From assembly GCF_024519435.1 (NCBI RefSeq), contig NZ_JALJRZ010000013.1:1-64000 (forward strand): a DNA stretch of 64,000 nucleotides, in the 5' to 3' direction. Within the stretch, counting starts at the first letter, position 1, and each line of letters opens with the position of its first letter. Both the position numbers and the translations under genes were made by a program. The notes below the pieces were generated by a model that was not told the origin of the DNA, did not search any database, and worked only from the letters and a program-made list of their open reading frames with translations. Positions 10,847-45,743 of this stretch are shown here, piece after piece. Source of the stretch: Terrabacter sp. Ter38 (GTDB taxonomy: Bacteria; Actinomycetota; Actinomycetes; Actinomycetales; Dermatophilaceae).

Positions 10847-10868
10847 GTAATCAGGATTACTCGATTAC
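10839..10868. promoter_or_regulatory. Cluster of four GTAATC/GATTAC half-sites
   Basis: Two GTAATC and two GATTAC hexamers occur within 30 bp, overlapping the start codon of the minus-strand gene. Read on that strand, one pair forms GTAATC-CT-GATTAC, a clean dyad. The stretch is strikingly AT-rich for this genome. It looks like an operator array; the binding protein is unknown, and the adjacent gene product is a candidate. Confidence 0.55.
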
Positions 10869-11007
10869 CAACGATCGTCAACGCCTTACGCCTGGGGCAG
10901 AGCGCGAGGACGTATGCCGCTGGGCGGCGTGCGGACGGCATACGGCCTCGGTGGAGGGGCGTGGCCTGGCCCGAAGGGGCCGTAGTGGCGGAGTGGCGCG
11001 AGCCGGC

Positions 11008-29315: not shown

Positions 29316-31727
29316 GTGACGACGACCCAGACCCAGACCCCGACGACTGCCACCGTGCCGGCCCCGACCGCCGACGAGATCGCCTCGATGGACGCGTGGT
29401 GGCGGGCCAGCAACTACCTGACGATCGGGCAGATCTACCTCAAGGACAACGCGCTGCTCCGTCGGCCCCTCGTGCCGGACGACATCAAGCCCCGGCTGCT
29501 CGGCCACTGGGGCACGAGCCCCGGGCTCTCCTTCGTCTACACCCACATGTCGCGGGTCATCCGGCACACCGGTCAGCAGACGATCTACCTCACCGGTCCC
29601 GGCCACGGTGGCCCCGCGCTCGTCGCGGCCGGCTACCTCGAGGGCACGTACTCGGAGATCTACCCGAAGGTGACGTGCGACGAGGACGGCGTGCGTCGCC
29701 TCTTCCGCCAGTTCTCGGCGCCCGGTGGCATCCCGAGCCACGTGTCCGTGACGACGCCCGGGTCGATCCACGAGGGTGGCGAGCTCGGCTATGTCCTCGT
29801 CCACGCGTTCGGTGCCGTCATGGACAACCCCGACCTGCTGGCGCTCGCCGTCGTCGGTGACGGGGAGGCCGAGACGGGGCCCCTCGAGGGCTCGTGGAAG
29901 GGCATCTCGTTCCTCAACCCGCGGCGCGACGGCGCGGTGCTGCCGGTCCTGCACCTCAACGGCTACAAGATCGCCGGGCCGACGGTGCTCGGACGCAAGG
30001 ACCCGGCGGAGGTGCGCAGCCTCCTCGAAGGGCACGGTTACGACGTGCTCGAGGTCGAGGGTGACGACCTCCCGGGCATGCACGAGCGCTTCGCGGAGAC
30101 GCTGGCGACGGCATACGGTCGGATCCGCGCCATCCAGCAGGAGGCACGGGCGGACGGCTGGACGATGGGGGAGCGGCCGCGGTGGCCGCTCATCGTGCTC
30201 CGCACGCCGAAGGGGTGGACCGGGCCGGCGGAGGTCGACGGCATCGCCGTCACCGGCTCGTGGCACTCCCACCAGGTGCCGCTCTCGGGTGTCAAGGACA
30301 ACCCAGAGCACCTCGCGGTCCTCGAGACGTGGCTGCGCTCCTACCGGCCCGAGGAGCTCTTCGAGAAGTCGGGAAGGCCGAACGATGTCGTGCTGCGAGC
30401 GAACCCGGAGGGCGACCTGCGAATGAGCGCCTCGCCGCACGCGAACGGTGGCGCGCTGACGACCGACCTCGACATGCCCGACTTCCGCGACTTCGCGCGG
30501 GACGTGCCGTCGCCCGCTGCAGCCCGGGAGGAGTCGACGCGCGCCCTCGGTGAGCTGATGCGCGAGCTCTACGTGCGCAACCCGACGACCTTCCGGCTCT
30601 TCAGCCCCGACGAGACCAACAGCAACCGGGTCGGCGCCGTCTTCGACGTGTCCGACCGGATGACGGCCGAGCGGGTGCTCGAGCAGGACGAGAAGCTCTC
30701 GCACGACGGGCGCGTCATGGAGGTGCTCTCGGAGCACTCGTGCCACGGCTGGCTCGAGGGCTACACGCTGACCGGCCGCCACGGCCTCTTCGCGACGTAC
30801 GAGGCGTTCGCGATGGTGAGCGCGTCGATGACGGTGCAGCACAGCAAGTGGCTGCAGGAGGCCAACAAGCTCGACTGGCGCGCGAAGGTGCCGAGCCTCA
30901 ACATCCTCCTGACGTCGACCGCGTGGCGCAACGACCACAACGGCTTCTCGCACCAGGGTCCCGGACTCATCCAGACGGTGCTCAACGCGCGCGGCGAGGT
31001 GTCCCGAATCTACCTCCCGCCGGACGCGAACTGCCTTCTCTCCGTGGCTGATCACTGCTTCCGGTCGAAGAACTACGTCAACCTCCTCGTCATCGACAAG
31101 CAGCCGCAGCCGCAGTGGCTGACCATGGACGAGGCCATCGCGCACTGTGCGGCCGGCGCCGGGATCTGGGACTGGGCCGGCACCGACGACGGCGACCGCG
31201 ACCCCGACGTCGTGCTCGCCTGCGCGGGCGACGTCGTGACCATGGAGGTCGTCGCCGCGGCCCAGATCCTCCGGGAGAAGCTGCCGCAGCTGCGGGTCCG
31301 GGTCGTCAACGTCGTCGACCTCATGACACTGCCCCGAGCCCGAAGCCACCCACACGGCATGGACGACGTGCGTTTCGGTGAGCTCTTCACCGACCACGTC
31401 GACGTCGTCTTCGCCTTCCACGGCTACCACGGCGCCATCCACCAGCTCGTCCACGGACGGCCCGACGCCGACCGCTTCCACGTGCGTGGCTTCAGCGAGG
31501 AGGGCACGACGACGACGCCGTTCGACATGGTCGTGCGCAACGGCGTCGACCGCTACTCACTCGTCGTGGACGCCATCAACAACGCCGGTCGGCAGGTGCG
31601 CGGGTCGAGCGAGGTCAAGGCCTGGTGCGAGGCTCAGCTCGCGAAGCACCACGCCTACATCGTCGAGCACCTCGAGGACATGCCCGAGGTGCGTGACTGG
31701 GTCATGACGACGGTCGTCGAGGACTGA
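29316..31727 (+). CDS. xfp: Phosphoketolase (xylulose-5-P/fructose-6-P)
   Basis: The 803-residue thiamine-diphosphate enzyme has the usual phosphoketolase length and sequence throughout: GPGHGGPALVAAGYLEGTYSEIYP, LAVVGDGEAETGPLEGSWKGISFLNPRRDG and HLNGYKIAGPTVLGR. The ThDP-binding GDGEAETG and the active-site His/Glu blocks (ETNSNR, HGWLEGYTLTGRHG, NDHNGFSHQGPG) are present. It splits xylulose-5-phosphate or fructose-6-phosphate with phosphate into acetyl-phosphate and glyceraldehyde-3-phosphate or erythrose-4-phosphate. A GTG start is used. It is monocistronic; no acetate kinase is adjacent. It could feed on pentose released by the GH120 enzyme, but the two are far apart. Confidence 0.95.
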   Translation: MTTTQTQTPTTATVPAPTADEIASMDAWWRASNYLTIGQIYLKDNALLRRPLVPDDIKPRLLGHWGTSPGLSFVYTHMSRVIRHTGQQTIYLTGPGHGGPALVAAGYLEGTYSEIYPKVTCDEDGVRRLFRQFSAPGGIPSHVSVTTPGSIHEGGELGYVLVHAFGAVMDNPDLLALAVVGDGEAETGPLEGSWKGISFLNPRRDGAVLPVLHLNGYKIAGPTVLGRKDPAEVRSLLEGHGYDVLEVEGDDLPGMHERFAETLATAYGRIRAIQQEARADGWTMGERPRWPLIVLRTPKGWTGPAEVDGIAVTGSWHSHQVPLSGVKDNPEHLAVLETWLRSYRPEELFEKSGRPNDVVLRANPEGDLRMSASPHANGGALTTDLDMPDFRDFARDVPSPAAAREESTRALGELMRELYVRNPTTFRLFSPDETNSNRVGAVFDVSDRMTAERVLEQDEKLSHDGRVMEVLSEHSCHGWLEGYTLTGRHGLFATYEAFAMVSASMTVQHSKWLQEANKLDWRAKVPSLNILLTSTAWRNDHNGFSHQGPGLIQTVLNARGEVSRIYLPPDANCLLSVADHCFRSKNYVNLLVIDKQPQPQWLTMDEAIAHCAAGAGIWDWAGTDDGDRDPDVVLACAGDVVTMEVVAAAQILREKLPQLRVRVVNVVDLMTLPRARSHPHGMDDVRFGELFTDHVDVVFAFHGYHGAIHQLVHGRPDADRFHVRGFSEEGTTTTPFDMVVRNGVDRYSLVVDAINNAGRQVRGSSEVKAWCEAQLAKHHAYIVEHLEDMPEVRDWVMTTVVED

Positions 31728-31790: not shown

Positions 31791-32588
31791 TCAGTCGCGC
31801 CGGGGCGCGATGACGACCTCGATGCCGTTGTCGCGGAAGGCTTGCAACGCAACGGGATCGGCGGACTCGTCGGTGACGAGGGTCCAGGAGCGTGGCATGA
31901 CGGCCCAGGCGTGGAAGGGCGACTGGCCGAGCTTGTCGGCGTGCGCGAGGACGTAGGTGTGCTCGGCCCGGCTCATCATCAGCTCCTTGAGCCGGGTCTG
32001 CTCGAGGTCGGCCTCGCAGATGCCGCGCTCGGCGTGCACGCTGTCGGCCCCCATGAACGCCCGGTCGAAGCTGAGGCGCTGGACGGCGGCCTCGGCGAGT
32101 GGCCCGACGAACGCCTGGCTCAGTGGCCGCAGCCGACCGCCCAGGGCGATGACGTCGATGCCGACGCTGTCGGCGAGGGTGCCCATGGCGCTGATGCCGG
32201 CCGTGACGACGGTCAGCTCGGTCAGCTCCGGCGTCTTGGTGATGGCGTCGGCGAGCGCGCCCATCGTCGACCCGGCATCGAGGAGCACCGTCTCGCCGGG
32301 CTCGATCTGGTCGGCGGCCCAGCGGGCGATGTCGCGCTTAGCGGCGTGCGCCTCGCCGAGACGCTGGCGCAGCGAGGCCTCGGGATGGTGGGCCAGGCTC
32401 ATGACCCCGCCGTAGGTCCGAGCCAGCTTGCCCTGGGCGGTCAGCTTGGCGAGGTCGCGCCGGATCGTCGACGCGGTGACGCCGAGCTGGTCGGAGAGCT
32501 CCTCCACGCTCGCGAGCCCACTCGTGGTGGCGAGGCGGACGATCTCGCCCCGACGCGTCTGTGCGGTGTGCTTCGCCACGCTGGGCAC
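31791..32588 (-). CDS. DeoR/GlpR-family transcriptional repressor
   Basis: The 265-residue protein has an N-terminal DeoR HTH (RRGEIVRLATTSGLASVEELSDQLGVTASTIRRDLAKLTAQGKLARTYGG) and a C-terminal sugar-phosphate-sensing DeoRC domain with LDAGSTMGALADAI. DeoR regulators sense phosphorylated sugar intermediates. It is the last gene of a leftward operon (DUF1537 kinase, PdxA-like, deoR), starting 1 bp after the pdxA stop. It probably represses both that operon and the divergent ABC-transporter operon through the palindrome at 35190-35208, with a phosphorylated sugar acid as inducer. The start is GTG; a second GTG 9 bp downstream is possible. Confidence 0.9.
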   Translation of the reverse strand: MPSVAKHTAQTRRGEIVRLATTSGLASVEELSDQLGVTASTIRRDLAKLTAQGKLARTYGGVMSLAHHPEASLRQRLGEAHAAKRDIARWAADQIEPGETVLLDAGSTMGALADAITKTPELTELTVVTAGISAMGTLADSVGIDVIALGGRLRPLSQAFVGPLAEAAVQRLSFDRAFMGADSVHAERGICEADLEQTRLKELMMSRAEHTYVLAHADKLGQSPFHAWAVMPRSWTLVTDESADPVALQAFRDNGIEVVIAPRRD

Positions 32589-32589
32589 C

Positions 32590-33597
32590 TTAGGCGTCCG
32601 CGGGCCGTGGCGCCATCTCCGCGCCGAGGCGCAGCGCCTCGATCATCGAGCGGTGGTCGGCGATGCCGGTGCCGGCGATGTCGAAGGCCGTGCCGTGGTC
32701 GACCGACGTGCGGATGACGGGCAGGCCGATCGTCACGTTGACGCCTGCCTCGAGGCCGAGCACCTTGACCGGCCCGTGGCCCTGGTCGTGGTACATCGCG
32801 ACGACGAGGTCGTAGTCGCCGCGACCGGCGAGGAAGAAGAGGGTGTCGGCCGGCAGGGCGCCGTGCACGTCGATGCCGTCGGCGCGGCAGACCTCCACGG
32901 CGGGGTCGATCTTCTCGGCCTCCTCGCCGTAGCCGAAGAGACCGTTCTCGCCGGCGTGCGGGTTGATGCCGCAGACGCCGATCTTCGGGGCCGGGTTGCC
33001 GGCGTCGACGAGGGCCTGGTGGCCGCGGCGGATGACGCGCTCGACGAGACCGGGCTCGATCCGGTTGACGGCGTCGATGAGGCCGATGTGGGTCGTCACG
33101 TGGATGACCTTGACCTTCTCGGTCGAGAGCATCATCGAGACCTCGGGCGTGCCGGTGAGGTGGGCGAGCAGCTCGGTGTGGCCGGGGAAGACGTGTCCGC
33201 CGGCATGCAACGCCTCCTTGTTGAGCGGAGCGGTGCAGATGGCCTGGACCTTGCCGGCCATCGCGAGCTCGGAGGCGACGCGGATGTAGTGGTAGGCGGC
33301 GTCGCCGGCGACGGCCGACAGCTGCCCGAAGGGGAGGTCCTCGGGCAGCAGCGCCAGGTCGATGACGTTGATGCGCCCGGGGATCTCGCTCGCCTCCTCG
33401 ACGTCGTCGACGGTGACGATGTCGACGGGGACGTCCGCGATGGCGGCGGCCTGCTTGAGCCGCAGGGCGTCACCGACGACGACGACGCGCGCCATCGTGG
33501 CCACGTGCGGGTCGGCCAGGGCCTTGACGATGATCTCCGGGCCGATGCCGGCGCCGTCTCCCATGGTCACGGCGATGCGGGGAAGGGCGACGCTCAT
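32590..33597 (-). CDS. PdxA-like 4-phosphate dehydrogenase (PdxA2 type)
   Basis: The 335-residue protein is in the 4-hydroxythreonine-4-phosphate dehydrogenase family: AVTMGDGAGIGPEIIVKAL, APLNKEALHAGGHVFPGHTELLA, GINPHAGENGLFG and YHDQGHGPVKVLG with the metal-binding His residues. Its pairing with a DUF1537 kinase (4-bp overlap) points to PdxA2, which oxidatively decarboxylates 4-phospho-D-threonate or -erythronate to dihydroxyacetone phosphate. A vitamin B6 role is less likely, since actinobacteria generally make B6 by PdxS/T. The first motif is GDGAGIGPE rather than the usual GDPAGIGPE. Confidence 0.88.
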   Translation of the reverse strand: MSVALPRIAVTMGDGAGIGPEIIVKALADPHVATMARVVVVGDALRLKQAAAIADVPVDIVTVDDVEEASEIPGRINVIDLALLPEDLPFGQLSAVAGDAAYHYIRVASELAMAGKVQAICTAPLNKEALHAGGHVFPGHTELLAHLTGTPEVSMMLSTEKVKVIHVTTHIGLIDAVNRIEPGLVERVIRRGHQALVDAGNPAPKIGVCGINPHAGENGLFGYGEEAEKIDPAVEVCRADGIDVHGALPADTLFFLAGRGDYDLVVAMYHDQGHGPVKVLGLEAGVNVTIGLPVIRTSVDHGTAFDIAGTGIADHRSMIEALRLGAEMAPRPADA

Positions 33598-35036
33598 GAG
33601 TTCTCCTCGGTGGTCGCGCCGGGGGTGGCGCGGGGTGCGGTGGTGGTCGATGAGGTGTGGCGGGACGAGGCCGGCGGCGGCACGGTGGTGGGCCCCAGCA
33701 GGTGCTCGACGACGCGGACGAGCGAGGTCGGGTCGCCGAAGCTGCCCGGGCGCGTGACGACGAGCCGGCCACCAGGGCGGCGGCTCACGACGGTGCCGGT
33801 CTCGACCTCGGCGACGACCTCGAGGTCGTGCACGTCGAGGCGGTCGAGGACGGCGCGGGCGGTCTCACCGCCGGAGAGGAACGCCGCGTCGAAGCGGTCG
33901 AGCACGGGCGAGACCGCGGCGGACAGGGCCTCCGTCAGGGCACGCGATCGGGTCAGGTCGGCGGGGGCATCGGGGTCGAGCGCCACCACGACGACACCCT
34001 CACGGGCGTGCTCGGCGAGCTGGACGCCTACGGCACCCGGGTCGGTCAGGAGGCGGTCGGGCTGCAGCAGGACCGTGTGCGCGGAGCGCGTGGTCGAGAG
34101 CCGCTCGAGCTGGGCCGGGAGTCCCGGCGCGCGCGAGCCGAGCACGAACAGCACGGATCGGACGGACCCGATGGGCTGGGCGAACCGCACCGCCCCCGCG
34201 GTTTCGGCGCCGCGGCCCTCAGATGGTGCGTTGTCGGTGGCCGGGCCCGCCGTTCGGGGGCCGCGGCGCTGGTCTGGCGGGAGGGCACGGACAGCGGCGT
34301 CGGCCAGGGCTCCGGACCCGACGAGGAGCGTGCGGCCGTCCTGCCCGGCGCTCGCGGCCACGGCGGCGGCGTGGACGACATCGAGGTCGGCGTCCGTCAC
34401 GGCGTCGCAGACCGGGACGAACCCGGTGCGGGCGGCCTCGTGGAGGGCCGCGGTGACCGCCTCGACGCCGCGCAGCACGGTGGTGTGCGGGACGAGCACC
34501 GTGGCCAACGGGTGCAGCGCCGCCGCCACCCGGTCCGGCGCCGGGGTCGGCTCGACGGCCCAGAGGGCGGTGTGGTGCAGCGGGGTGCCTCCGACGTGGA
34601 GCACGCCGTCGACGACGACGCGCTCGAGCGCGGGGTTGGCGACGGCGACGACCGGTGTGCGCTGCAGCTCTTCGGCGAGGGCGGCGACCTCCGCGGCGAC
34701 GTGACCGCGGAGCAGCGAGTCGACCTTCTTGACGACGACCGGTGCGGTCGTGACGAGGGCTGCGGCTGCGCGAACCGCGCGCACGGCCTCTGCGTGGGTC
34801 AGACGGCGCGAGTCGGTGTCGACGGTGAGGACGGCGAGCGGGTGCGCCGCGCCGCCGCTGCCGCCGCTGCCGCCCGAGCTGCTCGCGTCGGGCCGGTGGC
34901 CGGATGCTGGGGCGATGTCCGGCGGCGAGCTCGAGAGAACGACCGTGCTGCGCGAAACACGCACAAGAGCGTGAGAGGCGCACTCTGCGGCGCCGCTCAG
35001 GTCATCGGCGACGATGCCCAGGGCGAGTGCAGTCAC
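33594..35036 (-). CDS. Four-carbon acid sugar kinase (DUF1537 family)
   Basis: The 480-residue protein has both DUF1537 domains. The N-terminal substrate-binding domain shows GIVADDLSGAAECA and VVKKVDSLLRG, and the C-terminal nucleotide-binding domain shows LSGGETARAVLDRL and GSFGDPTSLVRVV. Family members phosphorylate D-threonate, D-erythronate or 3-oxo-tetronates at C4. A Ser/Gly-rich low-complexity stretch (SSSGGSGGSGG) interrupts the N-terminal domain, and the C-terminus has an unusual Thr/Ser tail. The GTG start has GAGGAGGAAACC upstream. It is the first gene of the operon with pdxA and deoR and divergent from the transporter operon. Confidence 0.88.
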   Translation of the reverse strand: MTALALGIVADDLSGAAECASHALVRVSRSTVVLSSSPPDIAPASGHRPDASSSGGSGGSGGAAHPLAVLTVDTDSRRLTHAEAVRAVRAAAALVTTAPVVVKKVDSLLRGHVAAEVAALAEELQRTPVVAVANPALERVVVDGVLHVGGTPLHHTALWAVEPTPAPDRVAAALHPLATVLVPHTTVLRGVEAVTAALHEAARTGFVPVCDAVTDADLDVVHAAAVAASAGQDGRTLLVGSGALADAAVRALPPDQRRGPRTAGPATDNAPSEGRGAETAGAVRFAQPIGSVRSVLFVLGSRAPGLPAQLERLSTTRSAHTVLLQPDRLLTDPGAVGVQLAEHAREGVVVVALDPDAPADLTRSRALTEALSAAVSPVLDRFDAAFLSGGETARAVLDRLDVHDLEVVAEVETGTVVSRRPGGRLVVTRPGSFGDPTSLVRVVEHLLGPTTVPPPASSRHTSSTTTAPRATPGATTEENS

Positions 35037-35189
35037 GGTTTCCTCCTCACGGTACTCGTTGCGCGTGTCATGCTGTGCGACAAGGAGATTGGCGACCCTG
35101 CCGATGGGGGAGAAGGGCGCCGTGGTGCTCTCCGGGAGTGCGCCGGACGGCATGCGATCAACCGTCCCTTCACAAAAAACGCTACAGGT

Positions 35190-35208
35190 ATTGCGCGAAT
35201 CGCGCAAT
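35190..35208. promoter_or_regulatory. 19-bp palindrome, probable DeoR operator
   Basis: ATTGCGCG and CGCGCAAT flank a 3-bp AAT centre. The site lies in the shared control region between the DUF1537 kinase and the ABC-transporter operon, just downstream of an AT-rich ACAAAAAACGCTACAG stretch that could hold a promoter. The deoR gene at the end of the kinase operon is the natural binding candidate. Confidence 0.7.
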
Positions 35209-35284
35209 GGTGCCAAGGTGGTTCAACCCGAGGGGCGCAGCGTGCGCCGCCGACGGGGAGGCCACCGCTCAACGAGGAGTCCCG

Positions 35285-36913
35285 ATGCCCCAGCAGCCCG
35301 CTCTGCTTCCCACGTCTGACCAGCCGACGCGGGAGGTCTCGCGTCGCTCGATCCTCAAGCTCGCCTCGCTGGCCGGCGCCGGAGCGCTCTTCGCTCCCGC
35401 GCTCGCCGCCTGCGCCGGGCCCAAGTCCGCCACCACCGCGAGCACTGCCGGGGCAGGGGCTGCGGGGGGCACGATGAGCATCGTGCTCAACCGCAACCTG
35501 GTCAGCCTCGACAACAAGCTGAACCAGTACGACGCGGCCGTCACCGTCCAGCGCGCCGTGCGCGAGGCCCTGACGAAGATCGGCGACAAGCTCACGCCCG
35601 AGCTCATGCTCGCCGAGTCGTTCGAGCAGACCAAGCCGACCGTGTGGACCGTCAAGCTGCGTGACGACATCCACTACTCCGACAAGTCGAAGGTCACGGT
35701 CGAGGACGTCGAGACGGCGCTCCGGCTCTACTTCGAGGTCAAGGCCGGCTACGTCGCCTCGCAGTTCCCCGAGCAGCCCACCTTCGCCAAGATCGACGAC
35801 CGGACCTTCACCCTGACGACGAAGAGCCCCGTCGTCTCGCTCAACTCGCTGATGTCCAACATCCTGATCACCCCCGCCAAGGACAACAAGGCGGAGGAGC
35901 TCGACTCCGGGCTCGGCACGGGACCCTTCACCGTCGCGAGCTCCGACTCCGGCACCGGCACCTACCGCTTGGTGCGCAACGACAACTACTGGGGCACCCC
36001 CGCCAAGCTCGAGACGGTCAACGTCAGCTACCAGGAGGAGGAGGGCGCGCGGGTCATCGCGATCACCTCGGGCCAGACCGACGTCATCGACACGATCACC
36101 CCCGAGTCCGCGACGTCCCTCAAGACCAACTCCGACATCGACGTCATCGAGACGCCCGGCACGCGCCTGATCCACCTCTTCTACAACTTCCGCAAGCCGG
36201 CCGGCAGCCCGCTCGCCAACCCGAAGGTGCGCGAGGCCCTCACCTACGCGATCGACCACGAGTCGCTCATCAAGGCGCTCATGAACGGCCAGGTCACCTC
36301 GGCCGAAGGCGTCGTCCCGACGACCCTCGCCGGGTTCGCCAAGACGGGTGAGTACACCTACGACGTGGCCAAGGCCAAGCAGATGCTCGCCGACAACGGC
36401 GGCTCCGGCCTCAAGGTGCGGATCATCTGGGAGGACTCCGAGTTCGCCGGTGCCTCGCGCGTGCTCGAGGCCGTCTCGCAGATGTTCGCCGCCGTCGGTG
36501 TCACCGCCGAGCTGAAGATGATCCCCAAGGGCGGCGAGATCAACGCCTGGCGTCGCGGTGAGGCCGGCGACTGGGACATCCTCGCCAACGGCTACGGCAA
36601 CCAGACGGGGCTCGCGCTGACGAACCTCCAGGGCCAGTACGGCGGCACGGCGGAGAAGGAGAAGACGCGCGACACCTACCACGGCTTCGTCGTCCCCGAG
36701 ATCACCGCGCTGCTCGACCAGGCCGCCGCCGAGTCCGACGAGGCCAAGCGCAACGACCTGCTCAAGCAGGCTCAGGACAAGATCTGGGCGGAGTGGCCGG
36801 CCGTGTGGGCCTGGACGCCGAACAACGTCCTCGCCAAGCGCAAGCGGGTGCAGAACCTCAACCTCCGGGCGACGAACTCCTACGACCTCGCCGCCGTGAC
36901 CGTCTCCGCCTGA
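35285..36913 (+). CDS. ABC transporter substrate-binding lipoprotein (family 5)
   Basis: The 542-residue protein starts with a Tat-type lipoprotein signal: SRRSILK followed by a hydrophobic stretch and the lipobox LAAC (Cys at about 43). The body is SBP family 5 (oligopeptide/nickel/sugar type): LAESFEQTKPTVWTVKLRDDIHYSDKSKVTVEDV and LANPKVREALTYAIDHESLIKALMNG. In this locus it probably binds an acidic sugar or oligosaccharide rather than a peptide; this is inferred from its neighbours. The ATG has GAGGAG 6 bp upstream. It is the first gene of the rightward operon and the likely target of DeoR control. Confidence 0.9.
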   Translation: MPQQPALLPTSDQPTREVSRRSILKLASLAGAGALFAPALAACAGPKSATTASTAGAGAAGGTMSIVLNRNLVSLDNKLNQYDAAVTVQRAVREALTKIGDKLTPELMLAESFEQTKPTVWTVKLRDDIHYSDKSKVTVEDVETALRLYFEVKAGYVASQFPEQPTFAKIDDRTFTLTTKSPVVSLNSLMSNILITPAKDNKAEELDSGLGTGPFTVASSDSGTGTYRLVRNDNYWGTPAKLETVNVSYQEEEGARVIAITSGQTDVIDTITPESATSLKTNSDIDVIETPGTRLIHLFYNFRKPAGSPLANPKVREALTYAIDHESLIKALMNGQVTSAEGVVPTTLAGFAKTGEYTYDVAKAKQMLADNGGSGLKVRIIWEDSEFAGASRVLEAVSQMFAAVGVTAELKMIPKGGEINAWRRGEAGDWDILANGYGNQTGLALTNLQGQYGGTAEKEKTRDTYHGFVVPEITALLDQAAAESDEAKRNDLLKQAQDKIWAEWPAVWAWTPNNVLAKRKRVQNLNLRATNSYDLAAVTVSA

Positions 36914-36942
36914 CTCACAGGCGACCAGACCAAGGTGATCCC

Positions 36943-37875
36943 ATGCTCAAGTACGTCCTCAAACGGGTCGGCCAGACGATCCTGACGGCCTTCCTGGCCG
37001 TGGCGACCGTGTTCGTCCTGCTCCGGATGGCCCCGGGCGACCCTGCCGCCAACTACGCGCCGCCGAACCCGAGCTCGGAGCAGCTCGAGGCGATCCGGCA
37101 GCAGTTCGGGCTCGACCAGCCGGTCCCCGTGCAGTTCTGGACGTTCCTGCAGCACCTGTTCCAGGGCGACGTCGGCACGTCGTTCTTCTTCAAGCGCCCC
37201 GCGCTCGACGTCGTCCTGGAACGCCTGCCCTACACGATCACCCTCGCCGTCGCGGCGATCATCGTCACCTCGGCCGTCGCGATCCCGCTCGGTGTGTGGA
37301 TGGCCCGTCGCAGCAACACGGCTCCGGAGCTGGGGGCCAACATCGGCACCATCGCCGGTCAGTCGATGCCCGACTTCTGGATCGGCTTCGTCCTGCTCAT
37401 CCTCTTTGCCGTGAACCTCCACTGGTTCGCGCCCTCGGGGTTCGACTCGGCGGCCTCGATCATCCTGCCCACGGTGACCATCGCGATCCTGCAGATCGCG
37501 CTCATCTCTCGGCTCGTGCGGCGCGAGATGGTCGTCAACCTCGCGTCGCCCTACCTGACGGTCGCGCGGTCGCGCGGGGTGTCGGAGCGTGCGCTGACCT
37601 GGCGCTACGCCTTCTCCAACGCCGCGCTGCCCGTCGTGACCGCGCTGGGCACCCGATTCGCGGCCATGCTCAACGGCGTCGTCATCGTCGAGGTCGTCTT
37701 CAACTGGCCCGGCGTCGGTGAGCTCGTCGTCAACGCGCTCAAGCAGCGCGACTTCCCGCTCATCCAGGCGACCGTCCTCGTCACCGTGCTGCTGGCGCTC
37801 GTCGTCCAGCTGATCGTCGACCTGCTCTACCCGCTCATGGACCCGCGGGTCCGACTCGGAGAGGCCAGCTCATGA
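36943..37875 (+). CDS. ABC transporter permease (DppB/OppB type)
   Basis: The 310-residue membrane protein has six helices and the family signature RLVRREMVVNLASPYLTVARSRGVSERALTWRYAFSNAALPVV, which includes the EAA loop. The N-terminal RMAPGDPAANYA is typical of DppB/OppB. It forms the membrane channel with the next gene, which it overlaps by 4 bp (ATGA). The ATG lies 29 bp after the binding-protein stop. Confidence 0.93.
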   Translation: MLKYVLKRVGQTILTAFLAVATVFVLLRMAPGDPAANYAPPNPSSEQLEAIRQQFGLDQPVPVQFWTFLQHLFQGDVGTSFFFKRPALDVVLERLPYTITLAVAAIIVTSAVAIPLGVWMARRSNTAPELGANIGTIAGQSMPDFWIGFVLLILFAVNLHWFAPSGFDSAASIILPTVTIAILQIALISRLVRREMVVNLASPYLTVARSRGVSERALTWRYAFSNAALPVVTALGTRFAAMLNGVVIVEVVFNWPGVGELVVNALKQRDFPLIQATVLVTVLLALVVQLIVDLLYPLMDPRVRLGEASS

Positions 37876-38825
37876 CCACCTCGACGAACCTCCCCGGCCA
37901 CCCGCAGGTGCCGAACCTCGCCGAGGTGCCCGGTTCCATCCTCGGCCGCGAGTCGGCCGTGACGAAGGTGCTGCTGCGCCGCTCGGCCGCCGCGCGACGG
38001 GCCCGCTACAGCACCATCAAGATCTGGGTCGGTGCGATCTGCGCCGGTGTCGTCGTCATCCCGGTCGTGCTGGCGGGAGTCCTCCCGCTGCCCGACCCGA
38101 TCGTCGGCGCCCTGTCCGAGTCGTCGCTGCCGCCGTTCAGCGCGGGCCACCTGCTCGGCACCGACCCCAACGGACGCGACCTGCTCTCGCGCATCCTCCA
38201 CGGCGGCCAGACGTCACTCGTGATCGGCTTCCTCGCGATCTTCGTCTCGGGCCTCTTCGGCATCGTCGCGGGCGCCGCCGCCGGCTACTTCGGAGGCTGG
38301 GTCGACACGATCATCTCCCGCCTGCTCGAGGCGCAGATGGCCCTACCGCTGCTGCTCATGTTGCTGCTCGTCGTGGCCCTCTTCGGCCCGTCGATCCCCG
38401 TCATCACGCTCGTCATCGCCTTCGCCCAGTGGCCCGAGCCGGCGCGCATCACCCGCGCGCTCGTGCTCGTCGAGCGGGAGAAGCCGTACGTCGCGGCGGC
38501 GCGGGTGCTCGGACTGCCGAAGTTCTCGATCCTCAGCCGGCACGTCGTCCCCAACATCCTCCAGCAGGTGCTCGTCGTCGTGCTCCTGCTGCTGGCCCAG
38601 GCCGTGCTGCTCGAGAGCGCCCTGTCGTTCCTCGGAGCCGGCGTCCAGCGCCCCTACCCCACGTGGGGCGGCATCATCTCGGACGGACGCGAGCTCTTCG
38701 TCACCGGCAAGCCCTGGCTCGTCACCGTGCCGGGCCTGGCCATCGCGCTGCTCGTCGTCGGCGTCAACCTCGTCGGAGACGGCCTGCGCGACCGGGTGCG
38801 CCGCGCGAAGGGAGACCAGACATGA
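37872..38825 (+). CDS. ABC transporter permease (DppC/OppC type)
   Basis: The 317-residue protein has an N-terminal OppC segment and six membrane helices. HLLGTDPNGRDLLSRILHGGQTSLVIGFLAI is the usual DppC opening, and REKPYVAAARVLGLPKFSILSRHVVPNILQQVLV is the EAA loop. It pairs with the upstream permease and overlaps the first ATPase gene by 4 bp. Confidence 0.93.
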   Translation: MTTSTNLPGHPQVPNLAEVPGSILGRESAVTKVLLRRSAAARRARYSTIKIWVGAICAGVVVIPVVLAGVLPLPDPIVGALSESSLPPFSAGHLLGTDPNGRDLLSRILHGGQTSLVIGFLAIFVSGLFGIVAGAAAGYFGGWVDTIISRLLEAQMALPLLLMLLLVVALFGPSIPVITLVIAFAQWPEPARITRALVLVEREKPYVAAARVLGLPKFSILSRHVVPNILQQVLVVVLLLLAQAVLLESALSFLGAGVQRPYPTWGGIISDGRELFVTGKPWLVTVPGLAIALLVVGVNLVGDGLRDRVRRAKGDQT

Positions 38826-39661
38826 GAGTCCTCGAGGTCACGGACCTGCAGGTCGAGCTGCTGACCGGCACCAGCGTCGTGCGCGCCGTCGACGGCGTCA
38901 GCTTCCACATCGACGAGGGCGAGACGGTGACGATCATCGGCGAGTCCGGCTCGGGCAAGTCGACGACGGCGATGGCCATCCTGCGCCTGCTGCCAGACGA
39001 CCTCGCGGTCATCTCCGGCGAGGCGCGCATCGCGGGCCAGGACGTCACGGGCACCCGCACCGTCATCGACAAGCTGCGCGGACGCGCGGTCGCCCTCATC
39101 CCGCAGGACCCGATGACGGCCCTCAACCCCATCCGCACCATCGGCCGGCAGATGACCGAGGCCGTGCGCATCAAGCACCCCGACCTCAACAAGGCTGAGG
39201 CGAAGGCGCGCGCCCTCTCCCTCATGGAGCAGGTCCACATCCGCAACCCCGCGAAGCAGTTCGACGCCTACCCGCACCAGCTCTCGGGGGGCATGCTCCA
39301 GCGCGTGCTCATCGCGATGGCGGTCTCGACCGACGCCGACCTCATCATCGCCGACGAGCCGACGAGCGCGCTCGACGTCACGGTGCAGGCCGGCATCCTC
39401 GACCTGCTCCTCGAGCTGCAGGAGCAGACCGGGATCGCGATCCTGCTCATCACGCACGACCTCGGCGTCGCCCGGCTGATGAGCGACCGCGTCCACGTCA
39501 TGAAGTCGGGCGCGTTCGTCGAGGGCGGCCCGGTCACCGACGTCGTCGACCACCCCCAGCACCCCTACACCCAGAAGCTGCTCGGTGCGATCCCCGAACT
39601 GGGCCCTTGGGAGGACCCGGGCGTCACGGCGCCGCTCGTCAAGGAGGCCAGCCATGGCTGA
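38822..39661 (+). CDS. ABC transporter ATP-binding protein (DppD/OppD type)
   Basis: The 279-residue ATPase has Walker A GESGSGKST, signature LSGGMLQR, Walker B LIIADEPTSALD and the H-loop THDLG. The C-terminal HPYTQKLLGAIPELGPWEDP is the oligopeptide-transporter tail, although the usual Cys cluster of OppD (an iron-sulphur site in some) is absent. It energises the importer together with the next ATPase, which it overlaps by 8 bp. Confidence 0.93.
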   Translation: MRVLEVTDLQVELLTGTSVVRAVDGVSFHIDEGETVTIIGESGSGKSTTAMAILRLLPDDLAVISGEARIAGQDVTGTRTVIDKLRGRAVALIPQDPMTALNPIRTIGRQMTEAVRIKHPDLNKAEAKARALSLMEQVHIRNPAKQFDAYPHQLSGGMLQRVLIAMAVSTDADLIIADEPTSALDVTVQAGILDLLLELQEQTGIAILLITHDLGVARLMSDRVHVMKSGAFVEGGPVTDVVDHPQHPYTQKLLGAIPELGPWEDPGVTAPLVKEASHG

Positions 39662-40502
39662 GGACCTGCTCACCGTCAGCAACCTCGTCGTCGAGTACGG
39701 CACCGGCAAGGACGTCTTCCGCGCCGTCGACGACGTGTCGTTCAGCGTGCCGCGGGGCGGCACCCTCGCCATCGTCGGTGAGTCGGGCTGCGGCAAGTCG
39801 ACGATCGCGAAGGCCCTCGTGCGGCTGCTGACGCCGACGTCGGGCGTCATCGACCTCGACGGCACGGATCTCGCCCAGCTGTCCGAGAAGCAGCTGCGCC
39901 CGATGCGTCACCGCGTGCAGATGGTCTTCCAGGACCCGTACGGCTCGCTCGACCCGCACCTGACGGCCCAGGAGATCGTCGCCGAGCCGATCCGGGTGCG
40001 CGGGGAGAAGTCGCGCAAGGCCCAGCGCGACCAGGCGGCCGCGCTCATCGAGCGGGTCGGGCTGCCGCGCACAGCCCTCGAACGCAAGCCCCCCGAGTTC
40101 TCCGGTGGGCAGCGCCAGCGCATCGGCATCGCCCGGGCGCTCGCGTCCGGTCCGGAGCTGCTCGTCTGCGACGAGGCGACGAGTGCGCTCGACGTCTCCG
40201 TCCAGGCGCAGGTCCTCGAGCTGCTCGCCGACATCCAGGCCGAGACGGGCCTGACCTACCTCTTCATCTCGCACAACCTCGGCGTCGTCCGCGCCATCTC
40301 GCAGGACACGGTCGTCATGCGTGCCGGCCGGATCGTCGAGAGCGGGCGCACCGACGACCTCCTCTCGCGACCGCAGGAGGAGTACACCCAGCGCCTGCGC
40401 CGCTCCGCGCTCGAGCCGGGGCTCATGACCGGCATCAAGCCGCGTCACCTCATCCGCCACATCGCCGCCTCCCGCACGGCCGAGACCGAGAAGGCCTCAT
40501 GA
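39654..40502 (+). CDS. ABC transporter ATP-binding protein (DppF/OppF type)
   Basis: The 282-residue ATPase has Walker A GESGCGKST, signature FSGGQRQRIGIARAL, Walker B LLVCDEATSALDVSVQAQVL and SHNLG. It is the second nucleotide-binding subunit of the importer. GAGG precedes the ATG inside the end of the previous gene, and its own end overlaps the aldo/keto reductase gene by 4 bp, tying the transporter to the metabolic genes. Confidence 0.93.
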   Translation: MAEDLLTVSNLVVEYGTGKDVFRAVDDVSFSVPRGGTLAIVGESGCGKSTIAKALVRLLTPTSGVIDLDGTDLAQLSEKQLRPMRHRVQMVFQDPYGSLDPHLTAQEIVAEPIRVRGEKSRKAQRDQAAALIERVGLPRTALERKPPEFSGGQRQRIGIARALASGPELLVCDEATSALDVSVQAQVLELLADIQAETGLTYLFISHNLGVVRAISQDTVVMRAGRIVESGRTDDLLSRPQEEYTQRLRRSALEPGLMTGIKPRHLIRHIAASRTAETEKAS

Positions 40503-41491
40503 CCACTGCCGCCCTCCCGACCACCGACCTGCCGCGTCTCGACCGACCGCTCTCGCGGCTCGTCCTCGGGACCATGACGTTCGGTGACACCGTCGACGTC
40601 GACACCGCTCGCGCCATGGTCGACACCGCGCTCGACGCGGGCATCACCTCGATCGACACGGCGAACGGGTATGCCGCCGGGCGCAGCGAGGAGATGCTCG
40701 CCGAGATCCTTGCCGGACGGCGTGACGCCGCGACGATCGCGACCAAGGCCGGCATCTACCCCGGTGACGCGGGCGACGCCCCGCTCCTGTCGGCCTCCGG
40801 TCTGCGCTCGTCGCTCGAGGCGAGCCTTCGCCGGCTGCAGACCGACCACGTCGACGTCTACTACCTCCACCAGCCAGACCGCTCGGTCCCGATCGACGAG
40901 ACCGTCGCTGCCCTCGGCGAGTTCGTCAAGGAGGGCACGGTGCGCGCCATCGGCGTCTCGAACTTCTCAGCGTGGCAGATCGGCGACGTCTTCGCTGCAT
41001 GTGACGCGCTCGGCACGCCGCGCCCGATCCTCGCCCAGCAGCTCTACAACCTCGTGGCGCGTCGCATCGAGGCGGAGTACTCCGAGTTCGCCACGACGAA
41101 GGGCCTCGCGACGATCGTCTACAACCCGCTCGGCGGCGGACTGCTCACCGGGCGCCACTCCTTCACCGAGTCGCCGGGAGAGGGCCGTTTCGGCTCGTCG
41201 GCACTCGCGTCGATGTACAAGGACCGCTACTGGAACGCCGAGACGTTCGCGGTCATCGAGGCCCTCGGCGCCATCGCGTCGGAGGCCGGCATCACTCTCC
41301 CCGAGCTGTCGCTGCGCTGGCTGCTGAGCAAGCCGGTCGTGTCGTCGGTGCTGCTCGGGGGATCCAAACCACACCAGCTGGAGGCCAACATCACTGCTGC
41401 ACAAGCCGGTCCGCTTCCCGACGACGTCGTCGCCGCGTGTGACGAGGCGGGCCTGGCGATCGCCGGGTCCATGCCGGGGTACAACCGATGA
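40499..41491 (+). CDS. Aldo/keto reductase
   Basis: The 330-residue TIM-barrel oxidoreductase carries ITSIDTANGYAAGRSEEMLAEIL (catalytic Asp and Tyr), IATKAG (Lys) and VYYLHQPDRSVPIDETV (His), the AKR tetrad. NADPH-binding residues lie in the C-terminal ALRWLLSKPVVSSVLLGGSKPHQLEANI-type stretch. It should interconvert a sugar aldehyde/ketone and an alcohol. Its place between the importer and the aldolase (4-bp overlaps on both sides) suggests it acts on the imported sugar or an aldolase product. Confidence 0.9.
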   Translation: MTTAALPTTDLPRLDRPLSRLVLGTMTFGDTVDVDTARAMVDTALDAGITSIDTANGYAAGRSEEMLAEILAGRRDAATIATKAGIYPGDAGDAPLLSASGLRSSLEASLRRLQTDHVDVYYLHQPDRSVPIDETVAALGEFVKEGTVRAIGVSNFSAWQIGDVFAACDALGTPRPILAQQLYNLVARRIEAEYSEFATTKGLATIVYNPLGGGLLTGRHSFTESPGEGRFGSSALASMYKDRYWNAETFAVIEALGAIASEAGITLPELSLRWLLSKPVVSSVLLGGSKPHQLEANITAAQAGPLPDDVVAACDEAGLAIAGSMPGYNR

Positions 41492-42291
41492 CCGGCGGAG
41501 GCACGGCGATGGAGCGCAGCCGTGAGCGGGTGCTCGACTACGCCCGCCGCGTCCGGGCGCGCGAGACGATCCTCGGCTACTGGGTCATCATCGACTCCCC
41601 GGTGTCGACGGAGCGGCTCGCCCGTCTCGGCTACGACTACGTCTGCTTCGACGCCCAGCACGGTCTGCTCGACTACAAGGGCATCCTGTCCGGAATGCAG
41701 GCGATCGACGCCGGGGGCGAGTCCGTCGGCATGGTCCGGGTCGGCGCCAACGACCCCTTCCTCATCGGGCAGGCGCTCGACGCCGGTGCCGCCGGCGTCA
41801 TCGTGCCGCTCGTCAACACCGCTGAGGACGCCGCCCGCGCCGTGTCGTACGCGAAGTACGGTCCCGAGGGCGTCCGCTCGTACGGCCCGATGCGCTCACA
41901 GCTGCGCGTCGGCCCCAACCCGGCTGACTCCAACGCCGCGACCGTCGTCCTCGCCATGATCGAGACGCCACAGGGCCTCGAGAACGTCGAGTCCATCGCC
42001 GCGACCCCCGGCATCGACGGGCTCTACATCGGCCCGTCCGACCTCCGTCTCGCCGTCGGTGGTGCCACCTCGACCGACCCGGCCGTCGATGACGTCTTCG
42101 AGCAGGCGGTCGACCGGATCCTGCGCGCCGCCAAGGCTGCCGGCATCGCCGCAGGCTTTCACACGCCGAGCGGAGAGGTCGCCGCCAACCGCCTCGGCCA
42201 GGGCTTCACCCTCGCCACCGTCTCGTCCGACCTCATCCACCTCGAGCAGGCCGCGACGGCCCACCTCAAGGCGGCGCGGGGCGAGTCGTGA
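41488..42291 (+). CDS. HpcH/HpaI-type class II aldolase
   Basis: The 267-residue protein is a metal-dependent pyruvate aldolase of the HpcH/HpaI family: GYDYVCFDAQHGLLDYKG, then VRVGANDPFLIGQALDAGAAGVIVPLVNTAEDA. Metal ligands Glu and Asp lie in MIETPQGLENV and LYIGPSDL. Family members reversibly split 2-keto-3-deoxy sugar acids to pyruvate plus an aldehyde. In this locus it may cut a longer keto-deoxy acid into pyruvate and a C2-C4 aldehyde; the substrate is unproven. It overlaps the genes on both sides by 4 bp. Confidence 0.9.
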   Translation: MTGGGTAMERSRERVLDYARRVRARETILGYWVIIDSPVSTERLARLGYDYVCFDAQHGLLDYKGILSGMQAIDAGGESVGMVRVGANDPFLIGQALDAGAAGVIVPLVNTAEDAARAVSYAKYGPEGVRSYGPMRSQLRVGPNPADSNAATVVLAMIETPQGLENVESIAATPGIDGLYIGPSDLRLAVGGATSTDPAVDDVFEQAVDRILRAAKAAGIAAGFHTPSGEVAANRLGQGFTLATVSSDLIHLEQAATAHLKAARGES

Positions 42292-43529
42292 GCGTCGCCG
42301 GGGCCTCCGCCCAGGTGCTCCCGACCGACGGCGTGCTGCGCCCGCGCGACGGAGGTGGGCACACGGCATACCTCCCCACCCCGACGGTGCAGTGCCACGC
42401 CGCCAACCTCGCGTGGCTGCCGAACGGCGACCTCGCGTGCGTCTGGTTCGGCGGCACCCAGGAGGGGGTCAGTGACATCACCGCCTACCTCAGTCGTATG
42501 CCGGCCGGTGCGGACACGTGGCTCGCCCCCGTGCCGCTCAGCGACGACCCGACGCGGTCGGAGCAGAACCCGGTCCTCTTCACGGCCCCGGACGGCGACG
42601 TCTGGCTGCTCTACACGGCTCAGCTCGCCGGCAACCAGGACACGTCCGAGGTGCGGCGACGGGTCTCGCACGACGGTGGTGACACGTGGGAGCCGCCGAC
42701 GGTGCTGCTCCCCGCGACGGGGGCCGGTGGCGTCTTCGTGCGCCAGCCGCCCGTGGTGACCGCTGGCGGCCGCATCCTGCTGCCCGTCTTCAACTGCGTC
42801 ACCGTGCCCGGCGAGAAGTGGGTCGGCAACGAGGACACGTCGAGCGTGTGGTGGAGCGACGACGGCGGCGACTCGTGGACCGAGGCGCCGGTGCCGGGGT
42901 CGCTCGGCTGCGTGCACATGAACGTCGTTGCACGACAGGACGGTTCGCTCTGGGCCTGCTTCCGGAGCCGCTGGGCCGACCACATCTGGGAGACGACGTC
43001 GACCGACGACGGCCTGAGGTGGGCCGAGCCGACCCCGGCCGCGCTGCCCAACAACAACTCCTCGATCCAGGCCGTCGCCACGGGGGACGGCCAGGTCGCG
43101 CTGGTCTTCAACCGGAGCTCGGCGCTCGACGCCACCGAACGCCGTGTGTCCCTCTACGACGAGATCGACGACGAGGGCGTCGTCGACGGTCTCGACGGTC
43201 CGGTCGTCGCGGAGCCGTCGCCCGAGGCGGCCGAGGCAGCGGGTCGACGGACGGCGTTCTGGGGTGCACCGCGGGCGCCCATGACGCTCGGCCTCAGCCC
43301 TGACGACGGCCACAGCTGGCCCGTGCAGGTGGACCTCGAGACCGGCGACGGCTACTGCATGTCCAACAACTCACGCGACGGTCTCAACCGCGAGCTGTCC
43401 TACCCCTCGGTGCTGCCCGGCCCGGACGGCGACCTGCACGTCGCGTACACCTACCACCGGCGGGCCATCAAGCACGTGCACCTGCCCGCCGACGTCGTCG
43501 ACCGCCTCCGCCGGAGCCCATCCCGGTGA
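42288..43529 (+). CDS. Sialidase-like (Asp-box/BNR) beta-propeller protein
   Basis: The 413-residue protein has four Asp-box motifs (SxDxGxxW): SHDGGDTW, SDDGGDSW, STDDGLRW and SPDDGHSW, the mark of six-bladed sialidase-type propellers. No signal peptide is visible, so it would act in the cytoplasm on an imported glycoside. The arginine triad of true sialidases is not obvious, so sialic acid is not a safe guess. Proteins of this PF13088-like class appear in acid-sugar catabolic loci with undefined activity. GTG start, overlapping the aldolase gene by 4 bp and the SDR by 4 bp. Confidence 0.8.
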   Translation: MSVAGASAQVLPTDGVLRPRDGGGHTAYLPTPTVQCHAANLAWLPNGDLACVWFGGTQEGVSDITAYLSRMPAGADTWLAPVPLSDDPTRSEQNPVLFTAPDGDVWLLYTAQLAGNQDTSEVRRRVSHDGGDTWEPPTVLLPATGAGGVFVRQPPVVTAGGRILLPVFNCVTVPGEKWVGNEDTSSVWWSDDGGDSWTEAPVPGSLGCVHMNVVARQDGSLWACFRSRWADHIWETTSTDDGLRWAEPTPAALPNNNSSIQAVATGDGQVALVFNRSSALDATERRVSLYDEIDDEGVVDGLDGPVVAEPSPEAAEAAGRRTAFWGAPRAPMTLGLSPDDGHSWPVQVDLETGDGYCMSNNSRDGLNRELSYPSVLPGPDGDLHVAYTYHRRAIKHVHLPADVVDRLRRSPSR

Positions 43530-44269
43530 CGGCACCGACGCGGCCCGAGCCGGCCCCCGCCCCACCTGACGAGCGTGCGACACGCACCGCGGTCGTCACG
43601 GGGACCAGCTCGGGCATCGGTCTCGCCATCGCCCACGACCTCGTCGGTGCCGGGTGGCACGTCCTCGGGCTCAGCCGCTCACGCGGTGCGCTGTCGGACG
43701 CCGCCACGTGGGTGCCGTGCGACCTGGCCGACGTGATCTCGGCCGACGGGGCCGTGCGCGCGGTGCGTGAGACCGCGACCGGCGGCGTGGACGCCATCGT
43801 CCACGCCGCCGGTCTGCAGTACTCCGCCGGCGTCGGCGACCTCCGGCCCGAGCAGGGCGAGCGGATGTGGGCCGTGCACGTGCGCGGCGCCGAGCTCGTC
43901 GTCGGCGGGCTCGTTGGCGTCCTCGCCGACGGCGGCCGCGTCGTCCTCGTCGGCAGCCGCACCATGACGGGGGTGCCCGGCAAGAGCCAGTACGCCGCCA
44001 CGAAGGCCGCGCTCGCCGCGATGGCCCGCGCGTGGGCGTCGGAGCTCGCGCCGCGACGGATCACCGTCAACGTCCTCGCGCCGGGACCGACGCGCACGGC
44101 GATGCTCGACGATCCCAACCGCGCGTCGGTGCCACCCGTCGTGCCGCCCCTCGGCAGGCTCGTCGAGCCGTCGGAGGTCGCCGCCCTGACCCGCTTCCTG
44201 GTCGAGCCGACCGGCGCGATGGTGACCGGTCAGACCATCGTCGTGTGCGGCGGCGCGTCCCTGCCCTGA
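43526..44269 (+). CDS. Short-chain dehydrogenase/reductase
   Basis: The 247-residue SDR has the cofactor motif TGTSSGIG, catalytic Ser in VGSRTM, the YAATK active site and the C-terminal TGQTIVVCGG. It is a classical SDR, likely NAD(P)-dependent oxidation of a hydroxyl on the sugar acid or its aldolase product. It is the last gene of the rightward catabolic operon. GTG start with a 4-bp overlap. A 16-bp palindrome follows the stop codon directly. Confidence 0.9.
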   Translation: MTAPTRPEPAPAPPDERATRTAVVTGTSSGIGLAIAHDLVGAGWHVLGLSRSRGALSDAATWVPCDLADVISADGAVRAVRETATGGVDAIVHAAGLQYSAGVGDLRPEQGERMWAVHVRGAELVVGGLVGVLADGGRVVLVGSRTMTGVPGKSQYAATKAALAAMARAWASELAPRRITVNVLAPGPTRTAMLDDPNRASVPPVVPPLGRLVEPSEVAALTRFLVEPTGAMVTGQTIVVCGGASLP

Positions 44270-45670: not shown

Positions 45671-45743
45671 GGTCGTGACCTCCTGTCGGAGCGGACGGCA
45701 CACAGCAGGCGCACGCCTGGCGCATGCCGTGGCGTCACGCTCG

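Follow-up and report, generated by a model that had tools for sequence, protein, structure and literature searches.

A conserved divergent gene cluster and its predicted role in the catabolism of a seven-carbon 3-deoxy-2-ulosaric acid

The actinobacterium Terrabacter sp. Ter38 carries, at positions 31791-44269 of a 64,000-nucleotide stretch of contig NZ_JALJRZ010000013.1 (the whole stretch is hereafter the window), a gene cluster in which a DUF1537 kinase and a PdxA-family enzyme are linked to an ATP-binding cassette (ABC) importer, an aldo-keto reductase (AKR), an aldolase, a sialidase-fold propeller and a short-chain dehydrogenase/reductase (SDR). Judged from its gene families and gene context, this cluster appears, on balance, to encode a pathway that takes a C7 3-deoxy-2-ulosaric acid via pyruvate and D-threonate to dihydroxyacetone phosphate (DHAP). 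The gene set probably lets soil, plant and gut bacteria use an unusual seven-carbon sugar acid, the predicted substrate, and the best explanation of the pathway logic would be an analogy in which the front resembles sialic acid use and the back end D-threonate use. An initial annotation had proposed a new route for a longer acidic sugar or glycoside, an interpretation that is partly supported as a whole. If the present proposal is true, it provides a function for a gene set whose propeller is found in about a fifth of complete E. coli genomes (1043/5426) and on many rhizobial plasmids, explains the return of a rare sugar acid to central metabolism, and gives a so far uncharacterised sialidase-fold family its reaction. 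A single growth test could check a prediction this sharp.

Layout, conservation and operator of the cluster

The two divergent arms described in the initial annotation, with the gene families it named, are confirmed by the list of open reading frames (ORFs) and by Pfam and NCBIfam scans of nine proteins; the second permease and both ATPases were named by reading their translations. The minus-strand arm contains the kinase, PdxA and DeoR genes, and the plus-strand arm contains, in this order, genes for the binding protein, two permeases, two ATPases, the AKR, the HpaI-type aldolase, the propeller and the SDR. Neighbouring ORFs overlap by 4-8 bases from the first permease through the SDR, and the kinase and PdxA ORFs by 4 bases; such consecutive overlaps within each arm are expected of two operons. 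The start of the kinase was re-placed at GTG 35036, behind GAGGAGGAA, the listed TTG at 35216 being too far upstream, and this start leaves a 248-base gap between the arms in which the operator is intergenic. The features are as follows.

31791..32588, minus strand: DeoR/GlpR-family regulator (DeoRC 4.4e-41, HTH_DeoR 3.6e-15)
32590..33597, minus strand: PdxA-family oxidative decarboxylase, proposed D-threonate-4-phosphate dehydrogenase (profile scans)
33594..35036, minus strand: DUF1537 four-carbon acid sugar kinase (SBD_N 2.8e-33, NBD_C 4.5e-16)
35190..35208, no strand: candidate palindromic operator ATTGCGCGA-A-TCGCGCAAT, in the gap separating the two arms
35285..36913, plus strand: SBP_bac_5 (family-5) substrate-binding protein of the importer (Tat-like signal, LAAC lipobox by eye)
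36943..37875, plus strand: ABC permease 1, BPD_transp_1, of Opp/Dpp/Nik type (profile scans)
37872..38825, plus strand: ABC permease 2 (by reading; relatives in 63/80 loci)
38822..39661, plus strand: ABC ATPase 1 (Walker and signature motifs by reading)
39654..40502, plus strand: ABC ATPase 2 (by reading)
40499..41491, plus strand: AKR, proposed C4 aldehyde acid reductase (4.8e-72)
41488..42291, plus strand: HpcH/HpaI (GarL-like) class II pyruvate aldolase (3.1e-34, active-site residues)
42288..43529, plus strand: BNR_2 sialidase-fold propeller (scan and fold model; no signal peptide by eye)
43526..44269, plus strand: SDR oxidoreductase (family scan)

Conservation of this arrangement was followed in the best 80 of 396 propeller relatives from a peptide-pattern scan of a species-genome collection, a sample biased to near kin. 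Each locus spans about 10 kb on either side (several contigs end sooner, and locus L036 has runs of N), and neighbourhoods were labelled by likeness to the window proteins, the second ATPase being recognised through its likeness to the first. Simple gene counts over the 80 loci carry no identity floor, and the pattern table applies floors of 43, 45 and 80% for SDR, AKR and MHS proteins. By these counts the AKR is present in 74 loci, PdxA in 73, the kinase in 71, the SDR in 66, the permeases in 63, the binding protein in 62, the HpaI aldolase in 61, DeoR in 55 and a DapA-type aldolase in 11; the two aldolase types never occur together (0/80), and 8 loci have neither. Kinase, PdxA, AKR, propeller and an aldolase are found together in 65/80 loci, which bears out the earlier view that these genes form one functional unit, and ten window gene types (PdxA, kinase, binding protein, two permeases, ATPase, AKR, HpaI aldolase, propeller and SDR, with DeoR not required) occur together in 52/80. 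The closest propeller relatives are from Terracoccus and Terrabacter (Intrasporangiaceae), and the genera with the cluster include Terrabacter, Arthrobacter, Streptomyces, Nonomuraea, Kibdelosporangium and Frigoribacterium. The genes are partly reordered from locus to locus, the DeoR gene ending either one arm or the other. Since it is found in dozens of genomes from many genera, the gene set is a conserved unit and not a chance assembly.

Genomes of seven of the eight loci lacking both aldolase types were searched (L051 was left out), and each of the seven encodes an HpaI-type aldolase away from the locus, with 57-67% identity for the best copies; the best out-of-locus copies of Streptomyces adjoin a DeoR gene in 5/6 loci. 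Elsewhere in the genome, three Streptomyces (L151-L153) also encode an additional AKR-aldolase pair of about 60% identity, perhaps part of a related pathway. A thiolase-like gene named by eye (44477-45703, minus strand), convergent to the SDR gene, was considered as a cluster member and set aside as a bystander, its relatives being present in 7/80 loci, all close kin. On the left, the cluster is flanked by a phosphoketolase-like ORF, also named by eye (29316-31727, plus strand).

A propeller relative is present in 307 plasmid records, 128 of them from Rhizobium and 78 from Sinorhizobium. Genome searches scored only the best first-look candidates, so the prevalences are lower bounds: strong propeller matches were found in 3/396 Actinomycetota genomes (E up to 1e-100, own genome counted) and 11/398 Pseudomonadota genomes (E up to 1e-60, centre genome counted), and among Pasteurellaceae-family genomes in 6/121 at E below 1e-180 (centre counted) and 27/121 at E up to 0.001. 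A patchy, accessory distribution of this kind is expected for a catabolic trait that moves horizontally. The Arachnia propionica cluster (L023:8513-9078 and 10001-11173) looks decayed, the C-terminus of its propeller shifting frame.

The gap between the arms holds one perfect 9+1+9 palindrome of 19 bases (35190-35208), and its 17-base core has one exact occurrence in the 4.83 Mb genome. The only copy of the core with one mismatch (60435) was rejected as a further operator: it sits inside a coding ORF, a polyphosphate kinase by eye. The pattern TTGCGCGNNNCGCGCAA, which was derived from the window, was sought in 71 divergent regions running from the kinase to the binding protein or AKR and recurs in 66 of them with no more than two mismatches (8 exact, 23 with one mismatch, 35 with two; the other 5 need three), near relatives among these regions not being independent and some regions containing coding-sequence ends outside the tblastn match. 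Dinucleotide shuffles of the divergent regions gave an expectation of 0.25 matches per set against the 66 observed and, because of this recurrence, it is very probable that the two arms are co-regulated through a common predicted operator, as the initial annotation had claimed. By way of the palindrome, DeoR would keep both arms repressed until an intermediate lifts the repression. In many Arthrobacter-type regions another copy, often a weaker one, lies at a distance of 23 bases. The arms lie apart in the Curtobacterium loci, Microbacterium L016 and Promicromonospora L018, and there similar sites also precede the propeller; in Microbacterium L019 a similar site precedes the kinase only. The divergent gap of E. 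coli Nissle 1917 has a different palindrome, TGATTGAATTCAATCA.

Exchanged enzymes and the predicted reactions

Equivalent clusters that differ in the type of aldolase, dehydrogenase and carrier are present in Actinomycetota, rhizobia, Azospirillum, Burkholderiales, Pasteurellaceae and E. coli. In these, the HpaI aldolase is replaced by a DapA type, the AKR by an iron-dependent alcohol dehydrogenase (iron-ADH), and the ABC importer by CitMHS, MHS or SSS carriers. A DHDPS-family aldolase with a CitMHS-type carrier is found in Curtobacterium, Microbacterium, Promicromonospora, Arachnia, one Propionibacteriaceae metagenome-assembled genome and Actinobacillus, with a small VOC protein in 8/11 of the loci having this aldolase; an MHS symporter takes the place of the ABC importer in three Sinomonas loci and two of Arthrobacter type. 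Eleven annotated regions, for which the gene tables of the plasmids are incomplete, list an iron-ADH and a DapA-family protein in 10/11, PdxA in 9/11 and a kinase or kinase piece in 9/11, and the long PdxA gene of Caballeronia (2307 bases) looks like a kinase-PdxA fusion. Five Pasteurellaceae stretches have the iron-ADH, propeller and YhcH in 5/5, PdxA and the DapA type in 4/5 and the kinase in 3/5. The Nissle 1917 version, the sole E. coli version examined, lies between glnS and nagE as two divergent arms, one with DeoR, PdxA and kinase and the other with iron-ADH, DapA family, TerC, propeller, YhcH and SLC13. Its YhcH-family gene overlaps the propeller gene and encodes a protein scoring below the N-acetylneuraminate anomerase equivalog cut-off; the TerC-family membrane protein gene (L140:7118-7876) is situated between aldolase and propeller. 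Because unrelated enzymes substitute for one another in otherwise similar clusters, the swaps mark the predicted conserved reactions as those of an aldolase and an aldehyde reductase.

In the pathway proposed here, the imported compound would be a C7 3-deoxy-2-ulosaric acid with two carboxylates, as a small ketoside or in an anomeric form, and it would then be hydrolysed or opened by the cytosolic sialidase-fold protein, with a NanQ-family YhcH protein or a VOC protein assisting the opening in other bacteria. A pyruvate aldolase (HpaI here, DapA type elsewhere) would yield pyruvate and 2,3-dihydroxy-4-oxobutanoate, and the AKR (iron-ADH elsewhere) would reduce this C4 aldehyde to D-threonate. 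The DUF1537 kinase would form D-threonate 4-phosphate, which PdxA would oxidise and decarboxylate to DHAP and CO2. It is the combination of a pyruvate-releasing aldolase with a reductase giving D-threonate that leads to a C7 3-deoxy-2-ulosaric acid as the substrate.

The window aldolase scores 143-145 bits with GarL/DDG aldolase models (best 145.4 of 393), 134 with HpaI and 95 with the rhamnonate type, far under the cut-offs of 369-441 for the GarL, HpaI and rhamnonate aldolase equivalogs. GarL and HpaI are both enzymes of acid aldehydes. His58, Arg84, Glu159 and Asp185, corresponding to the active-site residues of HpcH/HpaI class II aldolases, are kept in 62/62 alignment rows of at least 250 amino acids (aa), window included. 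The DapA proteins of the sister clusters keep the family lysine in 21/21 and the Arg of YNxPxR, which binds the carboxylate of aspartate semialdehyde, in 17/21; one of two DapA controls from the Actinobacillus genome has this Arg. The likeness of the window aldolase to GarL and the Arg-bearing DapA proteins both point to an acid aldehyde as the product. The catalytic Asp-Tyr-Lys-His of the AKR is present in 73/73 rows (300 aa or more with at least 45% identity, the window among them) and the Ser-Tyr-Lys of the SDR in 40/40 (at least 235 aa and 43% identity). The best matches of the iron-ADHs, below cut-offs, are to models including aldehyde reductases (lactaldehyde, sulfoacetaldehyde and 4-hydroxybutyrate types), and the replacing carrier matches Pfam CitMHS above its cut-off (1.1e-24 and 1.8e-24), which suits a diacid.

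The intact catalytic residues also allow the AKR and SDR to be oxidising dehydrogenases, and with the same layout the aldolase substrate could be a C7 ulosonic or other 2-keto-3-deoxy acid, a neutral aldehyde such as a tetrose being oxidised by AKR or SDR towards tetronate. The DapA proteins in which the YNxPxR Arg is missing (4/21) fit this alternative, which is rather unlikely given that no aldehyde dehydrogenase or lactonase family was found among the nine window proteins scanned, that the iron-ADHs score best with models including aldehyde reductases, and that the aldolase types suggest an acid aldehyde. A different possibility is a pair of substrates that co-occur in nature, one for the D-threonate arm and one for the aldolase/propeller arm, with a single regulator for both. 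The kinase-PdxA pair alone is reportedly a known D-threonate route, the aldolase-less Streptomyces type keeps its aldolase elsewhere in the genome, and Pantoea L130 is exceptional in having only carrier, propeller, YhcH and SDR, with neither kinase nor PdxA, within the stretch examined. This separation of the arms into two pathways is made quite unlikely by their common operator and by a linkage that persists across phyla despite the swapped aldolase, reductase and carrier.

Returning to the D-threonate end of the proposed C7 pathway, the PdxA and kinase of the Nissle cluster pass the equivalog cut-offs for D-threonate 4-phosphate dehydrogenase (681.6 vs 583) and D-threonate kinase (533.4 vs 450), and among kinase models the one for D-threonate kinase scores best with the window DUF1537 protein, which contains an insert rich in Ser/Gly and a tail rich in Ser/Thr. 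Three His of PdxA, presumably the metal ligands, are kept in all 73 rows that reach 300 aa, the window among them. In a PdxA tree with long branches, the cluster PdxAs of actinobacteria, Roseomonas and Comamonadaceae group (100/99) and the branching order among the E. coli, rhizobial and Azospirillum groups is not resolved, so a single origin of the module is not proven.

The window PdxA is the sole PdxA match in its genome and exceeds the TIGR00557 cut-off. A role in vitamin B6 synthesis was rejected because the genome has PdxS and no PdxA outside this operon. Recycling of a vitamin B6 side product, which is said to have been reported in 2016 for DUF1537 members, could draw on the same TIGR00557 score and is highly improbable for this PdxA-kinase pair, with PdxS present, no other PdxA, and an operon that includes an importer, an aldolase and a reductase. 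The C4-acid module seems to be the end portion of a longer predicted pathway.

The propeller and the candidate substrate

The predicted model of the propeller (pLDDT 88.7) has the six-blade sialidase fold, with Foldseek matches to 7lbu (3.1e-17) and 1eur (3.4e-17) at a TM-score of about 0.67 by query length, and Tyr372 is invariant. The sialidase motif comprises the RIP arginine and an Asp acid/base. Profile alignment does not place these residues in the propeller, so that its reaction is uncertain; of the glycosidic hint that the initial annotation took from the Asp-box protein, the sialidase fold stands, and the usual Arg/Asp pair is not seen in the profile alignment. Taken together, propeller, YhcH and aldolase suggest a ketosidic 2-ulosonic-type acid handled by an anomerase and an aldolase. 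The carbon-carbon cleavage step proposed earlier is supported, as is a substrate longer than C4 and probably ketosidic.

The boldest concrete candidate would be 3-deoxy-D-lyxo-heptulosaric acid (Dha), a constituent of plant rhamnogalacturonan II. In a Fischer projection drawn by hand, C5 and C6 of Dha become C3 and C2 of D-threonate, with the left and right orientations required; the C4 epimer of Dha fits equally, and this stereochemical argument rests on the D-threonate assignment. A tentative suggestion is that horizontal gene transfer has spread the cluster, as a catabolic route for this rare C7 diacid of rhamnogalacturonan II, among bacteria of soil, plants and the gut, about a fifth of the complete E. 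coli genomes analysed among them, and that the sialidase-fold family includes a new cytosolic activity, as a ketosidase or an anomerase.

Several observations weigh against the C7 acid or against individual steps proposed for it. At the back end, the window kinase (92.9 of 450) and PdxA (352.5 of 583) are both under their D-threonate equivalog cut-offs. Kinases are 28-46% identical between genera where the neighbouring PdxA is 70-77% identical, making a change of kinase specificity possible, and identity to the window PdxA is 52% for Nissle and 45-47% for the rhizobial and Azospirillum proteins, low enough that PdxA specificities could differ across groups. Arachnia L023 has lost most of the kinase, with short DUF1537 remnants between PdxA and AKR and no SBD_N match found elsewhere in its genome. 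Among the 21 cluster DapA proteins, 4 are without the YNxPxR Arg (one has Lys, three neither), as is the second Actinobacillus control. The iron-ADHs fall below every curated cut-off and also resemble choline dehydrogenase and ErcA models. The carrier evidence is modest, since the DASS score is under its cut-off and the nearest specific model for the MHS protein is a shikimate transporter (306.7 of 538); the ABC importer of the window is of peptide/nickel type. In the propeller, the profile alignment puts Gln93 and Thr110 (invariant in 35 rows) at the sialidase Arg/Asp positions, with an uncertain blade register. The SDR has no needed step in the pathway and is absent from several cluster versions. 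Finally, Dha is not named by any feature of the cluster (no search was aimed at a hydrolase that would release it).

Comparison with known systems

Related clusters are already in print. The available part of a 2026 paper on E. coli BEN2908 (PMC12928451) compares the E. coli GR6 region (nagE-glnS) with the pdxA-like cluster of S. meliloti 1021; both have a kinase, PdxA, an aldolase-family protein, a dehydrogenase and a sialidase-like protein, with a DeoR/GlpR regulator in E. coli, and that part of the paper does not name a substrate for either. As described there, these clusters have a DapA-type aldolase and an iron-ADH, whereas the window has the HpaI type and an AKR, and E. coli GR6, unlike the window, has a NanQ-like protein and a CitT-like carrier. 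With equivalent clusters in many groups, and those of E. coli and S. meliloti published without a substrate, the cluster is not special to this genome, and in this respect the initial annotation is not supported as written. In the open-licence literature of PubMed Central, to which the search was confined (subscription journals lying outside its scope), no assigned pathway for the cluster was found.

The OtnK/OtnI/OtnC tetronate pathway uses the isomerase OtnI and the class II aldolase OtnC, and neither family is among the nine window proteins scanned (permease 2 and both ATPases left out). D-threonate catabolism by DtnK-PdxA2 was reportedly described in 2016 as the action of a kinase and then PdxA, giving DHAP and CO2. 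As in that system, the kinase and PdxA genes of the window are adjacent; unlike it, the window adds an importer, a propeller, an aldolase and a reductase, and its proteins are below the equivalog cut-offs.

D-glucarate and galactarate are used through the aldolase GarL, the reductase GarR and the kinase GarK. The order proposed for the window is similar, with an HpaI-family aldolase forming pyruvate and an acid aldehyde, followed by a reductase and a kinase. However, the proposed acid aldehyde is one carbon longer, the kinase is of the DUF1537 family and PdxA is added. Sialic acid use involves a sialidase, the anomerase NanQ or NanM, and NanA. The cluster resembles it in the sialidase fold of the propeller and, in sister clusters, in a NanQ-family protein and an aldolase of the DapA/NanA superfamily. 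Unlike sialic acid use, the cluster is without ManNAc kinase or epimerase, and its product would enter the D-threonate route.

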